From the NCBI GenBank assembly GCA_900128395.1, contig LT649491.1:1-23293 (forward strand): a DNA stretch of 23,293 nucleotides. The letters run 5' to 3'. The notes under the pieces were generated by a model. The model was given only the letters and a program-made list of their open reading frames with translations, was not told the origin of the DNA and did no database searches. Within the stretch, counting starts at the first letter, position 1. Each line of letters opens with the position of its first letter. The translations under genes and the position numbers were made by a program. Below, one piece after another: positions 7,497-22,957 of the stretch. This DNA is from Stramenopiles sp. TOSAG23-2. Taxonomy: Eukaryota > Sar.

Positions 7497-8679
7497 ATGA
7501 ATTATGTACTTGTAATATTCGTTGTCATAAATTTGATTCTTTTACAAAAAGAAGTAAGAATGCTACATGCAAAGAAAAATAAAAGGAAACAGAAGAAAAC
7601 TAAAAAACGCCCTGGTTTAGGTATGGTTGGATTGTGCTCAAAGAATATTTGCCAATTTACAATGGGTGGAGATGAAAAGTCTGGATCACCTGGGACAAGA
7701 TACGTGGAATTACAAAGTTATAAAATTGATCGAACGTCGGTAACAAACCAAATGTTTCGAAAATATATCAAAGAAACGAAATATAAGACCGAAAGTGAAC
7801 ATTTTGGCTGGAGTTTTGTATTTGACCCGCTCGTGTCGGATCAAGTTAGAAAAGATAACCCACAGACGCTGGAAAAAGGAGGTAAGCATTGGAGAGCAGT
7901 AGGATCAGCATATTGGCGCAAGCCAGAGGGTGTGGACAGTAATTTGAAAGAAAGATGGGAATATCCTGTCGTCCATATTTCAAAAAATGATGCAGAAGAT
8001 TATTGCAAATATTATGGCTTGCGCTTGCCAACTGAGGCAGAATGGGAATATGCGGCTAGAGGTAAGTGAAACGCATAGCAAAAACTTTAAAGATGCCTAA
8101 TATATAACTAACCAATATTTATTTATAACTGTATTATTTTATTGATGTAAAGGTGGTATAGGTTTGTATCCATGGGGAGATGGTACAAAACCATTTTTGA
8201 ATAATAAATGGATGATGAATGTATATAATGGAACAGATTTTCCTAATGATGATACAGGAAAAGATGGTTTTGTAAATGTATGCCCAGCAACAGCATTTCA
8301 TCCGAATAATTATGAGATATACAATATGTTAGGTAACATATGGGAATGGACGCAATCAAAGTTCGTTACTCAGGATTCGCAAAGTAACCAATTTGTTTTG
8401 AAAGGTGGAAGTTTTATTGACTCTATTGACGGCTTAATCAACCACAAAGTCACTGCAACAACAAGAATGGGTAACACAGCTGATGCTGGGTCAAATAATG
8501 TAGGCTTCCGTTGTTGTAAAGGTCTAGGCGGCGGGCGTAAGGCACCGCCAGATCAAAAGAAAATTGAAAAGATCATGGCTGAAAGTGGTGTTGAAGGAGT
8601 TCAAGAATATTTGGCATCACAAGGTAGCAATATGCAAGCTATATCCGCGAAAGACATGGTGGACCAATATCAAAAGTAA
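7497..8679 (+). CDS. SUMF2/pFGE-like formylglycine-generating-enzyme family protein, 363 aa, two exons
   Basis: An FGE-sulfatase-fold protein made by joining 7497-8061 to 8153-8679. Domain landmarks run in order: [51 protein letters not shown] (across the splice), [33 protein letters not shown] and VGFRCC. True FGE (SUMF1) has two catalytic cysteines after the GGS motif. Here that stretch has no cysteine and instead reads like vertebrate SUMF2 (pFGE), which shares the SxID, DG, NH and TRMGNT pattern. SUMF2 is an ER-lumen paralogue that cannot make formylglycine and binds SUMF1. Residues 1-16 are a hydrophobic signal peptide or anchor, followed by an unusual lysine/arginine-rich stretch (26-38). 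A ~50-residue helical tail follows the domain. The family is firm; the SUMF2-type role is inferred. Confidence 0.88.
8062..8152 (+). other. Spliceosomal intron, 91 nt, phase 1
   Basis: The donor is G|GTAAGT and the acceptor is TGTAAAG|GTGG. A branch-like TAACTAAC at 8105-8112 lies ~40 nt upstream of the acceptor. Without splicing the frame stops at 8067. Splicing restores the family sequence [10 protein letters not shown]. It is the only intron clearly needed in this window. Confidence 0.92.
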
Positions 8680-14704: not shown

Positions 14705-16261
14705 TTACAATCCTTTTGCTTTCTTTTTCGTTGGGCCTTTCGCTCTTGTGGCCTCAATATATTTTACTTCTCGTGGATCCATCAACCCAGTAAGCTGTAA
14801 TTTTCCATGTTTATCTACATCGTAACATAAATCTTGTGGTGAACTGCCGCCATAAATAGCAAATAATGCTGCCCATACAAATCCTAGTGAACCAAAAATA
14901 TAAAATACAGGCTCCCATCCCAAATAATGCTCAATAAGTGGTACACACATCATAGCAATGACAATCCCAGCATACACACCATTTTCTGTAATAGTTACTA
15001 ATATATCCTCCTCATCTCGTGGGAACCATTCACTAAATAAACTATAAACCGCTGGAAAATTTACACCCTCACCGGTACCCATTAAAAATCGTACTAAAAC
15101 TATTAACCATGGATGCACTGCACTGGGAGGTGTTAAAATGGTAAACAGTGACCACCATATAACGCCGAAAATCAAAACGTTCTTTGCACCCCATCTATCT
15201 GATAAATAACCACCAATTAGATGAGATGCCATTAAGCCTAGGAAAAACACACCGAAACAGATTCCTTCAAAGGATTTTGTCCATCCATATTTCTTTGCCA
15301 TTGGGATCATCGTTGCGCTTATATTGGCACGATCCATGTAGCAAATCAAATCAGCCATGCAACAAAATATCATAATATTCCATCGTCTAGGCCAATATTT
15401 AGCCCATATGGAATTTTTTTCAACGTTGTTAAAGTCTTTGGTATCTTGATCTAAATTATTATAATGATCCTCTACAACTTCTTGTGGAAAAATTGGTGTA
15501 AAGGAACTAAATCCCATATATGAAATAAATGATACGATATTAACACCTAAGGCGACAGCAAATGCATTTTCATAATGACCTCTACGCTTTACTAATGCAC
15601 CAGTTATAACCGACGATAAAAAACCAGCACCAGTCGCAAATTCATGTGTCAATGCCATGATTGAACCTGCATATTTTGCACCTATATCAATAACATTTAC
15701 AGCTACACCAGCTATGAAGCTTGCATTTAAAACGTACATAATATTTACAACCCAAAAAGCAACCCATGGTTTACCCACAGGTATTCGTGTCAAAGCTGCG
15801 AAACATCCAATATTTCCTGTATAACATATGCATGCAAGCGTTCTGCGTGTTCGTTTTAATGACCATCGAAAAGATGCGTTTTTTGTCCCAATTGGCTTGT
15901 AAAGGTTCCTATTTGGATCGTCCTCAGCTCCTGCATGCAACGTATTCTTTAATATACCAAAAAATATTACGAATGGTACAGTTAAACCAAAAGGTACAGC
16001 ACTCATGTATGCAGCTGTATGCTCTTTCATACCCATTTCGTGCAAATATGAAGGTAACCACGTAACTATCATAAAAAACGAGTAGTAAAAGCCAAATTTC
16101 GCGATACCCAACGCCCAGACAGGAGTACTTGTTAATATTTCTCCCCATGGTACATCCTCCGAAGGAGTCACTTTTTCTGGATCTATGGTTTTCTCCGAAT
16201 GCATTGGGTTTTGAATGCTTTTTTTATCTATTAAGGAATCATTCTCCTCTTCAGTGGACAT
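14705..16261 (-). CDS. SLC17-type MFS transporter with its two halves in swapped order (circular permutation), 518 aa
   Basis: An anion-transporter-like MFS protein with ~12 membrane helices, but rearranged. Residues 38-258 match the second half of SLC17 proteins such as sialin: VPWGEILTSTPVWA (after the central loop), TWLPSYL, SAVPF, then DIGAKYAGSIMALTHEFAT (TM11) and TM12. Residues 290-475 match the first half: RRWNIMIF..ICYMDRANIS (TM1), GVFFLG..IGGYLSDRWGAK (TM2 plus MFS motif A), FTILTPPSA, RFLMGTGEGVNFPA (TM4), the loop before TM5, then WEPVFYIFGSLGFVW and SSPQ (TM6). Both ends lie in what is normally the central cytoplasmic loop, and a ~30-residue acidic linker (259-289) joins old TM12 to old TM1. 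The frame is unbroken and the start is ATG 16261. Substrate unknown. Tandem with Pus3. Confidence 0.88.
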   Translation of the reverse strand: MSTEEENDSLIDKKSIQNPMHSEKTIDPEKVTPSEDVPWGEILTSTPVWALGIAKFGFYYSFFMIVTWLPSYLHEMGMKEHTAAYMSAVPFGLTVPFVIFFGILKNTLHAGAEDDPNRNLYKPIGTKNASFRWSLKRTRRTLACICYTGNIGCFAALTRIPVGKPWVAFWVVNIMYVLNASFIAGVAVNVIDIGAKYAGSIMALTHEFATGAGFLSSVITGALVKRRGHYENAFAVALGVNIVSFISYMGFSSFTPIFPQEVVEDHYNNLDQDTKDFNNVEKNSIWAKYWPRRWNIMIFCCMADLICYMDRANISATMIPMAKKYGWTKSFEGICFGVFFLGLMASHLIGGYLSDRWGAKNVLIFGVIWWSLFTILTPPSAVHPWLIVLVRFLMGTGEGVNFPAVYSLFSEWFPRDEEDILVTITENGVYAGIVIAMMCVPLIEHYLGWEPVFYIFGSLGFVWAALFAIYGGSSPQDLCYDVDKHGKLQLTGLMDPREVKYIEATRAKGPTKKKAKGL

Positions 16262-20061: not shown

Positions 20062-21063
20062 ATGACATCATTGAATCTTTTGTCGCGCCCACGGCGAAAC
20101 CGGGTAAATGACGCAATACGTAAATTTCATAGTGAAACATGGTTAGGTCCACAACACTTTGTATTGCCATTATTTATTCATGATTCGGAGGAAAATGTTC
20201 CTATATTATCGATGCCTGGATGCTCCCGTTTAAGTTTAAAAGGTATGATGGACGAGGTACGTGGAGCTGTAGAGGATGGAATCACTTCTATTGAATTATT
20301 TCCAGCTATTGCAGAAGAATTAAAAACTGCCGATGGCAAAGAATGTTATAATTCAAATGGTTTAGTTCCAACTGCAATAAAAATGTTGAAAAAGGAGTTT
20401 CCAAATATAGTGATCGTGACAGATGTAGCTTTAGACCCATATTCATCTGATGGTCATGATGGTATCGTTGATGCTACTTCAGGTAAAATTTTAAATGATG
20501 AAAGTGTCGCCGTCCTGTGCAAACAAGCCCTTTGTCATGCCAGGGCTGGTGCGGACATAATTGCGCCGAGCGATATGATGGATGGCCGTGTCGGTGCAAT
20601 ACGAAAAGCATTGGATAGTGAAAATTTCAAAGACATATTGATTTTATCTTATACCGCTAAATATGCATCTTCATTTTATGGACCATTTCGGGAAGCATTG
20701 GATTCAGCGCCTAAATTTGGTGATAAGAAAACATATCAAATGGATCCAGGGAATGCACGTGAAGCAATTCGGGAATTACAATGTGATGAGAGTGAAGGTG
20801 CTGATATATGTATGGTGAAACCAGCAATGCCATATTTAGATATTTTGCAACGACTTCGGCAAAATACGACATTGCCATTAGCTGCATATCAAGTAAGTGG
20901 TGAATATGCAATGTTAAAAGCTGCATCTCAAAATGGATGGCTAGAAGAAAAAAAAGTTGTAATGGAATCATTATTGTCCATACGACGCGCAGGAGCAGAT
21001 ATAATTTTTACATATTTCGCGAGACAAGCTGCAAGATGGTTAAAAGAAGACAAAATGTTTTAA
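20062..21063 (+). CDS. Delta-aminolevulinic acid dehydratase (porphobilinogen synthase), plant/algal type, 333 aa
   Basis: Condenses two 5-aminolevulinate molecules to porphobilinogen, the second common step of haem synthesis. The sequence is complete for the family: RPRRNR, FVLPLFIH, DVALDPYSSDGHDG, APSDMMDGRVGAIR, SYTAKYAS with Schiff-base Lys200, YQMDPGNAREA, MVKPA with Lys253, and AYQVSGEY. In the metal-site segment (121-134) animal and yeast enzymes have three cysteines; here there are Asp residues, as in plant and algal enzymes that use magnesium. The REALDSAP and QMDPGNAREA regions suit the form with the allosteric magnesium site. Only ~8 residues precede the conserved RPRRNR, so no plastid or mitochondrial leader is evident and a cytosolic location is likely (inference). 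Intronless, ATG at 20062, converging on the PRPP synthetase gene. Confidence 0.96.
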   Translation: MTSLNLLSRPRRNRVNDAIRKFHSETWLGPQHFVLPLFIHDSEENVPILSMPGCSRLSLKGMMDEVRGAVEDGITSIELFPAIAEELKTADGKECYNSNGLVPTAIKMLKKEFPNIVIVTDVALDPYSSDGHDGIVDATSGKILNDESVAVLCKQALCHARAGADIIAPSDMMDGRVGAIRKALDSENFKDILILSYTAKYASSFYGPFREALDSAPKFGDKKTYQMDPGNAREAIRELQCDESEGADICMVKPAMPYLDILQRLRQNTTLPLAAYQVSGEYAMLKAASQNGWLEEKKVVMESLLSIRRAGADIIFTYFARQAARWLKEDKMF

Positions 21064-21397: not shown

Positions 21398-22957
21398 TTA
21401 CTCCTTTCCTTGTGCAGCATATCTATTTTCCCTATTTTGCGCTTGATATGCTGTAAATTTCTTTAAAGATTCTCGATCATGTATCCTACGTATACATTCT
21501 GCAACTACACCACCAATAGACACACGAACAATCCTATTATCAACCTTATTTTTTACTGCATGCCATTTCTCTTCTTCCGTTCGCAAATCAGGTATTGTAT
21601 TTGTAACTACTATTAAATCTAGCTCTTTCGCATTATTTAAACGTTCGTATGCATTTTCACTAAATAAACCATGTGTTGCAAAAGCAAATATACGCTTTGC
21701 ACCATTTCTTTTTAAATATGCAGCACGTTGTATTAAGCTCCTCCCTGTATCAATTAAATCATCAACAATGACAACGTCTTTACCTTTGACATTACCAACA
21801 AGATCAAGATTTGTTTTCAAAAGCTTTGGCTTATCACCATCTTCTACACCGCTAGCACTATTATCACTTCGTAAACGATGTGGGTATAAAACATCTGCCA
21901 TACGAAATTTACTATTGTCATCTCCTTCATGATCAGCCGTTTCTGGAATAAATAATGCAACACTAACATCCATTTTTTCCAGCTTGCCATCTTTCCAACG
22001 ATAACCACTACCCAATAAACCAGATTGAAAATCTCTAGTTTTTTTCGTACATGTTGGATTTGCACTAACTATCACAGCATCTTTGGAGACGATTGGTCTG
22101 AAATATTCGACGCCAGCATATGTTGCTTCAATACAATCAACCGGTGCACTATTTGCAAAAAAACCTTCAATTTCTCCTTGACCTGGTGGTTGTAGATCTA
22201 CCGAAACTATACGATCTACACCCATTGTTACCAACATTTGAGCTATATCCGCACTAGCAATTGCAGCAGTAGATTCTTTATTTTTGCTTCGTTGCATGCT
22301 TTGCCCACCTACTTCCAATTTGTAACCATAATATGGAATTACAGCCGTAATTCGTTTCGCAGATGCACGGCGAAAAGCGCTAACCATTAATAATAATTCC
22401 ATTAAATTATCATTTGTTGGTGGACAAGTTGGTTGTATAATGTAGCAGTCGCAGCCACGGACACTTTCACCAATACGTATATTAATCTCACCATCAAGAA
22501 ATTTGCCACTTTTTATATCTGACAAACGAGTCCCTAATTTTTTCGCAATTTCTTTTGCTAATTCTGGATTCCCACTACCAGCAAATAATTTAACGTGTGT
22601 ATCCATAATAGAAAATTTAGATTCACCAGTATCAGTTGAAGGAGATGGTGTTTCTATGACTGGTGATATCGCTTTGGCTGAGGTTAAAAAATTTCTATTG
22701 TCTGTGTCATTATTGTCGATGTCATTAGATTTCCAGTTGGAATATAACATACCTGATGAAGCTAAAGCAATAGCTGCGCCACCAATTATTATTTTTGTAG
22801 TATGATTATTAAAATTTGTATTTTTTTCATTACTAAAATATCTTTTACTATGTTTTACTTTTCTCTTCCGAAACAATTCCATGTTTCTATTCTTGTAACT
22901 ATAAACCCTCAGGGTTCTAATACTTTTCATGGGATACATATGTTTAAAAAACATCAT
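21398..22957 (-). CDS. Ribose-phosphate pyrophosphokinase (PRPP synthetase) with mitochondrial-type leader and membrane anchor, 519 aa
   Basis: Makes PRPP from ribose-5-phosphate and ATP for nucleotide, His and Trp synthesis. Residues ~122-519 are the PRPS fold: LFAGSGNPELA, KFLDGEINIRI, the P-T-C-P-P-TNDNLMELL region, IPYYGY, VDRIVSVDL, the PRPP loop DVVIVDDLIDTGRS (394-407), and VVTNTIPD. The first ~50 residues are basic with no acids until Glu27 (RTLRVYSYKNRN, then KRYFS), like a mitochondrial presequence. A hydrophobic helix follows at 54-72, then a flexible acidic linker. It is therefore probably anchored in a mitochondrial membrane (inference). Relative to human PRPS1, the active-site loop is rewritten (LEVGGQSMQRSKNKE), His130 aligns with Gln256 and Asp171 with Asn300. 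An insertion sits around 340-385. Normal PRPS is ~318 aa. Confidence 0.9.
   Translation of the reverse strand: MMFFKHMYPMKSIRTLRVYSYKNRNMELFRKRKVKHSKRYFSNEKNTNFNNHTTKIIIGGAAIALASSGMLYSNWKSNDIDNNDTDNRNFLTSAKAISPVIETPSPSTDTGESKFSIMDTHVKLFAGSGNPELAKEIAKKLGTRLSDIKSGKFLDGEINIRIGESVRGCDCYIIQPTCPPTNDNLMELLLMVSAFRRASAKRITAVIPYYGYKLEVGGQSMQRSKNKESTAAIASADIAQMLVTMGVDRIVSVDLQPPGQGEIEGFFANSAPVDCIEATYAGVEYFRPIVSKDAVIVSANPTCTKKTRDFQSGLLGSGYRWKDGKLEKMDVSVALFIPETADHEGDDNSKFRMADVLYPHRLRSDNSASGVEDGDKPKLLKTNLDLVGNVKGKDVVIVDDLIDTGRSLIQRAAYLKRNGAKRIFAFATHGLFSENAYERLNNAKELDLIVVTNTIPDLRTEEEKWHAVKNKVDNRIVRVSIGGVVAECIRRIHDRESLKKFTAYQAQNRENRYAAQGKE

Follow-up and report, generated by a model that had tools for sequence, protein, structure and literature searches.

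The SLC17 family of the major facilitator superfamily (MFS), which includes VGLUT2, sialin and SLC17A9 as well as plant PHT4-like and bacterial Na-phosphate and D-galactonate transporters, is the described family closest to a gene at positions 14705..16261, minus strand, of a 23,293-nucleotide contig from Stramenopiles sp. TOSAG23-2 (GenBank LT649491.1; the whole contig is designated the window). The product shares with these proteins an arginine in transmembrane helix 1 (TM1), the Arg/Glu of TM4, and the central-loop and P.RW motifs. It differs from them in that its two halves are exchanged, the central loop is opened, a linker is present (33 residues here, 74-116 residues in a second sub-clade of relatives), and phenylalanine occupies the positions of VGLUT2 R322 and H128. 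The frame very probably encodes an MFS transporter of SLC17 type (anion:cation symporter-like) that has been circularly permuted in nature; the permutation would have arisen once, probably via tandem duplication.

Reordered membrane proteins are known outside this family. The VKOR and DsbB oxidoreductases, small helical-bundle enzymes, are related by permutation; they are alike in being membrane proteins with reordered helices, but they are not MFS transporters. Within the MFS, the halves of lactose permease can function as separate chains, as in N6/C6 co-expression, and helix triplets are reordered between LacY and FucP. These split and mix-and-match models likewise predict that halves or triplets could rejoin in another order, but they draw on laboratory splits or deep structural comparison, whereas here a natural swap of whole halves is evident in the sequence. 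The nearest precedent in print, among the literature listed, is the nicotinamide nucleotide transhydrogenase of Eimeria tenella, a natural circular permutant and, like the present case, a reordered protist membrane protein (PMC3320104). The domains of that enzyme are separate subunits in bacteria, whereas here the halves of a single MFS fold are swapped. The same source describes two principal routes to permutation: a gene is duplicated and gains a new start and stop, or it undergoes fission and its parts then fuse.

The order of the halves was assessed with N-half, C-half and 428-position full-length profiles, all built from 25 normal-order proteins (P0014-P0038). The C-half profile gave 94 bits for residues 1-275 of the frame and -0.7 for residues 276-518, whereas the N-half profile gave -4 and 199 bits, respectively. 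The full-length profile matched the frame in two pieces, residues 28-255 on profile positions 218-424 and residues 286-477 on 9-201; it matched the permuted relative P0005 with positions 206-428 first and 8-204 second (of 428). When the halves were swapped by script, the summed full-length-profile score changed by no more than 3 bits. The nearly unchanged score, together with the two-piece match, indicated circular permutation and not a partial or degenerate match. Both parts were homologous to one reference, with their order exchanged, near-full coverage and little overlap, and the usual MFS order of N-bundle before C-bundle was not found in the frame. The sequence-only reading had placed TM7-12 before TM1-6, and both kinds of profile confirmed this placement. 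The same order was recovered by phmmer searches of PDB sequences, in which frame residues 320-476 and 32-252 matched sialin 104-261 and 283-486, and frame residues 317-475 and 37-275 matched VGLUT2 109-268 and 301-529, respectively. MFS_1 (PF07690) matched the frame at 130.7 bits, above its curated cut-off of 33.4. The half order and the SLC17-type family of the frame are well supported by computation. A reversed half assignment through the pseudo-symmetry of the MFS was also considered and was ruled out by half-profile cross-scores near zero.

Two word-based database searches, seeded from the permuted family's own members, returned 147 and 152 matches; the best 120 of each were listed (27 and 32 lay beyond these), giving 124 proteins. 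Of these, 109 carried the N-half before the C-half (N-C), including the 25 profile-building proteins, nine carried the exchanged order (C-N; P0001-P0009), and three each carried only an N-half or only a C-half. P0001 differed from the window by 2 substitutions over 518 residues, which indicated another sequence of nearly the same gene. P0002 and P0009 began within the C-half, yet both spanned the junction. Seven further divergent proteins shared the C-N order, six of them at 44-70% identity over 91-98% of the frame. The C-N order recurred in two sub-clades: the first contained the window and P0001-P0004, with short linkers, and the second contained P0005-P0009 and six single-half entries, with linkers of 74-116 residues (measured in P0005-P0009) and a CCCCC block. 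Residues were conserved on both sides of the junction, and long invariant stretches ran through both halves in the alignment of relatives. The 15 permuted or single-half entries came from the sources ena, jgi and lgn, and none of the 15 from NCBI, UniRef or EukProt. Viral contigs gave no match.

An assembly or library artefact could in principle have merged parts of two genes, and the window is a single short contig (C258, 23,293 bases) from an assembly of 793 contigs and 17.45 Mb. However, P0001 and P0002 crossed the same junction on other contigs, and seven divergent proteins had the same order. Recurrence across other contigs and divergent sequences shows that the order is no assembly join, and an artefact is extremely improbable. 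The join of two genes that the sequence-only reading had raised against itself was thus not borne out, and the search it had proposed for the same order in relatives was answered by the nine C-N proteins among the 124 listed.

The frame comprised 518 uninterrupted codons at 14708-16261 on the minus strand, with the stop codon at 14705-14707. Its ATG at 16261 was preceded by in-frame stops, and the plus strand across 14705-16261 was riddled with stops. The frame opened with a new N-terminal tail (residues 1-37; 16151..16261) that was mostly unstructured, with a predicted local distance difference test score (pLDDT) of about 30 for residues 1-30 in the AlphaFold2 model. The tail stopped just short of the VPW motif, which in normal-order relatives comes after the central loop. 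The ancestral C-half, TM7-TM12 (residues 38-257; 15491..16150), was delimited by the half-profiles, the full-length profile, the match to sialin 283-486 and the model, in which helices spanned residues 46-75, 80-109 (broken), 135-157, 165-194, 198-223 and 231-251. The new linker from old TM12 to old TM1 followed (residues 258-290; 15392..15490), and then the ancestral N-half, TM1-TM6 (residues 291-470; 14852..15391), delimited by the profiles, the sialin match and the model (helices 292-325, 329-357, 359-380 (broken), 384-412, 417-447 and 450-470). The N-half carried R311 in TM1 and R391 and E398 in TM4. The new C-terminal tail (residues 471-518; 14708..14851) corresponded to the opening part of the ancestral central loop and contained its short helix, DPREVKYIEATR (model helix 496-505). 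All of these parts lie on the minus strand. No left-over half was found beside the frame, the next best six-frame match within the window having an E-value of 0.37. A relic or pseudogene without transport is a highly improbable reading of a frame that is uninterrupted and whose permuted relatives encode long, open proteins with long invariant stretches in both halves.

The position of the cut was apparent from the loop motifs. In many normal-order relatives, TM6 gave way to SP... and a short E..YI-like helix; a variable stretch came next, and (I/V)PW..IL..PVWA marked TM7. Permuted proteins with a complete end finished in SP...D.(R/K)E(Y/V).(Y/F)I.ATR.K or a near variant, and those with a complete start had a variable tail ahead of (I/V)PW..IL...VWAL. 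The loop motifs at both new ends indicated that the central loop was cut within its variable part and that both pieces were retained, in agreement with the earlier claim of a breakpoint in the central loop. At the new joint, normal-order P0015 and P0014 ended in ..FASGEKQFD and ..ASATREFD, and permuted P0005 read ..FGSADPQFD and then ran on into the linker. The linker started about where normal-order proteins stop and closed with P.RW, the TM1 opening of three normal-order plant proteins. An end-to-start junction of two gene copies would explain all of this.

The linker had been described from the sequence as acidic and about 30 residues long. Its position, at about residues 258-290 (15392-15490), was confirmed, and in the frame it comprised 33 residues with a net charge of -4. 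The acidity, however, was particular to the window's sub-clade and not a trait of the family: among the nine permuted database proteins, the eight linkers measured ranged from -5 to +4 in net charge and from 32 to 116 residues in length. Every one of the nine C-N proteins from the databases had a linker, and F277 was invariant in alignments. The block (S/T)P.F.R.CCCCC was conserved in the linkers of P0005-P0009 and missing from the window's sub-clade; it is a possible lipidation site. In the AlphaFold2 model, the linker of the frame formed two short helices, modelled with low to moderate confidence. The product might instead resemble a polyprotein and be cleaved within the linker, or act as two half-transporters, so that chain order would be structurally meaningless; the largely low-confidence linker in both models and its variable length in the eight database members would suit this. 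A linker retained in every C-N protein with conserved elements (F277 and the sub-clade 2 block) makes such cleavage very unlikely.

The halves were placed by phylogeny. Of the 120 two-half proteins, five whose halves were short, including P0002, were excluded, which left 115; the partial P0009 was retained. Supports given are FastTree local supports. Nine permuted sequences (P0002 left out) formed one clade with support of 1.0 in the N-half, C-half and combined trees. Among the bipartitions listed, one was common to both half-trees; tighter ones had supports of 0.48-0.51 in the C-half tree. It united the permuted proteins with P0014-P0039, three fish SLC17A9-like proteins, the genome's own paralogue and P0083, with supports of 0.978 (N-half), 0.969 (C-half) and 1.0 (combined). 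This is an SLC17/PHT4/SLC17A9-type clade. The same bipartition for both halves indicated that both derive from the SLC17/PHT4-type part of the superfamily, and both halves aligned to the SLC17 / anion:cation symporter family (NCBIfam TIGR00894 / TIGR00893). Supports of the immediate parents of the permuted clade were low (0.43-0.62). The nearest normal-order relative of the N-half was the bacterial-type P0014, and that of the C-half was P0020/P0016 (plant-like).

Normal-order relatives were also sought in the same genome. An MFS_1 search gave 82 first-look candidates, nine of which were scored; eight matched almost all of the profile in order, and the remaining one, on contig C667, covered positions 5-302 of 347. 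The window's own gene was absent from these nine matches, so the search would miss further permuted copies. Half-profiles applied to the eight loci gave two clear two-half results, both N-C, and weak, single or zero matches elsewhere. One of the two was the paralogue on contig C32, the nearest normal-order copy among own-genome matches (26% over one half); no close normal-order copy of the permuted gene was found among those matches. An SLC17-like normal-order paralogue of 484 residues (L005, 1810-3264, minus strand) provided an in-genome control for half order.

The exchanged order would have a single origin, in a protist ancestral to at least two sub-clades. A normal-order gene would have been duplicated in tandem, the end of copy 1 fused to the start of copy 2, and the outer halves lost. 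This tandem model fits the junction best, while the six single-half entries keep fission and fusion in play. In that alternative the same permuted protein would result if a normal gene broke into two half-genes, or if two SLC17-type paralogues each contributed a half, and the pieces later joined in reverse (fission-fusion or exon shuffling). P0012, P0013 and P0122 carried only the C-half, and P0010, P0011 and P0121 only the linker and N-half. P0012 and P0122 departed from the family sequence right after ..PQ, and P0010 and P0011 entered it at about that point; P0013 departed earlier and P0121 began later. Four of the six entries thus break near the end of old TM12, which suggests that an intron, or a boundary between separate genes, lies near the new joint. 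Breaks of this kind, the different nearest relatives of the two halves and the capacity of MFS halves to work as separate chains all favour fission and fusion. However, the single-half entries could equally be exons of intron-bearing genes, one clade holds both halves, and a linker that starts at the normal-order end and retains P.RW is what tandem copies joined end to start would be expected to leave. We consider fission and fusion unlikely, though far from negligible, and tandem duplication the probable route.

Residues of the SLC17 family were compared. The TM4 pair was kept, with R391 aligned to VGLUT2 R184 and E398 to VGLUT2 E191. The TM1 arginine, R311, was paired with sialin R57 in a weakly scoring stretch (-2.6 bits) and, on visual alignment, with P0014; the VGLUT2 equivalent is R88. 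VGLUT2 R184 is a luminal chloride-site residue, and neutralization of the TM1 arginine (R88A) affects anion uptake (PMC6057745, PMC12240346). Loss of VGLUT2 R322, which is conserved across the three VGLUT isoforms, abolishes currents (PMC6057745). The gene is presumably expressed, and the most likely activity would be transport coupled to H+ or Na+, with phosphate or an organic anion as the substrate.

AlphaFold2 modelled the frame with a pLDDT of 76.9, a predicted template-modelling score of 0.77 and twelve helices of transmembrane length, two of them broken, arranged as two predicted six-helix bundles. On comparison with solved structures, the models of the frame and of P0005 both had the MFS fold. 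The sequence-only reading had argued that the pseudo-symmetry of the two halves would let a swapped order fold and had proposed a fold prediction; the models of these two permuted proteins agree with that expectation. The structure matches followed chain order, each half lying on the opposite half of the target, and so support an MFS fold and not a permuted correspondence. Because the structural alignments were run in sequence order, the permuted correspondence rests on sequence. The C-bundle (TM7-12) would be made first and the N-bundle (TM1-6) second, with a cytosolic linker tying old TM12 to old TM1. A cut in the cytosolic central loop allows each of the twelve helices to retain its in/out orientation. 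The bundles would pack as in other MFS proteins and operate an ordinary rocker switch, with the linker as a tether.

Several results weigh against this interpretation. MFS_1_like (PF12832) spanned both halves in chain order, with frame residues 141-418 on 66-335 at 21.0 bits (cut-off 25.2) and P0003 residues 174-510 on 11-336 at 25.6 bits, just above the cut-off. Given that MFS_1 (130.7 bits) and the half-profiles score much higher, these matches are read as pseudo-symmetry of the halves. TIGR00894 scored 147.3 bits on the frame, far under its curated cut-off of 626.45; normal-order P0014 and P0016 likewise missed this cut-off (305 and 283 bits). No tandem N-C-N-C intermediate was found, as none of the 126 proteins examined carried a duplicated N or C domain at E < 1e-5. 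VGLUT2 R322 and H128 aligned to F58 and F336 of the frame, and the histidine of the TM10-11 motif NH.DIAP was replaced by V190. The three replacements indicate that substrate and coupling may differ from those of known SLC17 proteins, and F58 and F336 make a VGLUT unlikely. Since R322 is shared by the three VGLUT isoforms and sialin has another residue at its position, the phenylalanines disfavour VGLUT identity but not membership of SLC17 at large. The models rest on 14 sequences, and the five frame models ranged in pLDDT from 56.8 to 76.9. In the P0005 model, DSSP merged two of the twelve helices at 163-206. Foldseek template-modelling scores were moderate (0.51-0.63 by query length among the best 50 rows).

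The neighbours of the permuted gene with a Pfam match encode a GLTP protein, an FGE-sulfatase, a FYVE-PH protein, a pseudouridine synthase, an EF-hand protein, ALAD and PRPP synthetase, and three of the ten scanned had no match. The gene set of the window reads as eukaryotic. Rfam gave nothing at gathering scores within the window. The sulfatase-modifying-factor-like (FGE-sulfatase) gene at 7497-8679 (plus strand) may consist of two frames in different phases, 7497-8069, which carried the Pfam match, and 8164-8679, with a likely short intron between them. ALAD (20062-21063, plus strand) started without an obvious long leader; its closest PDB sequence was 3obk, from Toxoplasma, and the gene may help to place the host. 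PRPP synthetase (21398-22957, minus strand) had an N-terminal extension of about 110 residues ahead of its first Pfam domain. Among the best 120 of its 7,933 matches, the top relatives were 89, 82, 62 and 57% identical, followed by values below 50%. The organism-named matches among those listed were about 38-41% identical and came mostly from apicomplexans, with one Perkinsus, one Pythium and one monkey-labelled sequence. The PRPP synthetase and ALAD matches together hint at an alveolate-like host, which looks like a member of a poorly sampled protist lineage.

No natural MFS permutant was found among the open-access titles and abstract openings listed. PMC12667903 contained no word starting with transporter, membrane, MFS, facilitator or permease, the permuted fold of PMC10927120 was not MFS, and the permutation words of PMC9952236 were confined to its reference list. 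With this family, natural circular permutation has probably been recognised for the first time in the MFS. A single ancient exchange would have been fixed and diversified in an uncultured protist radiation, with a new cytosolic linker, which in one sub-clade contains the possibly lipidated Cys5 block, taking over from the central loop in tethering the two rocking bundles. The MFS is among the most numerous groups of transporters, and the 109 listed normal-order relatives keep a single half order. A living family with the exchanged order is a natural experiment on the need to insert the N-half first, the role of the central loop and the independence of the bundles. It is also a warning for transporter annotation: the few source names carried by the relatives, 'MFS family permease' and 'sugar phosphate permease', leave the exchange unmentioned. 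The finding shows that evolution can rewire even the very common MFS fold.
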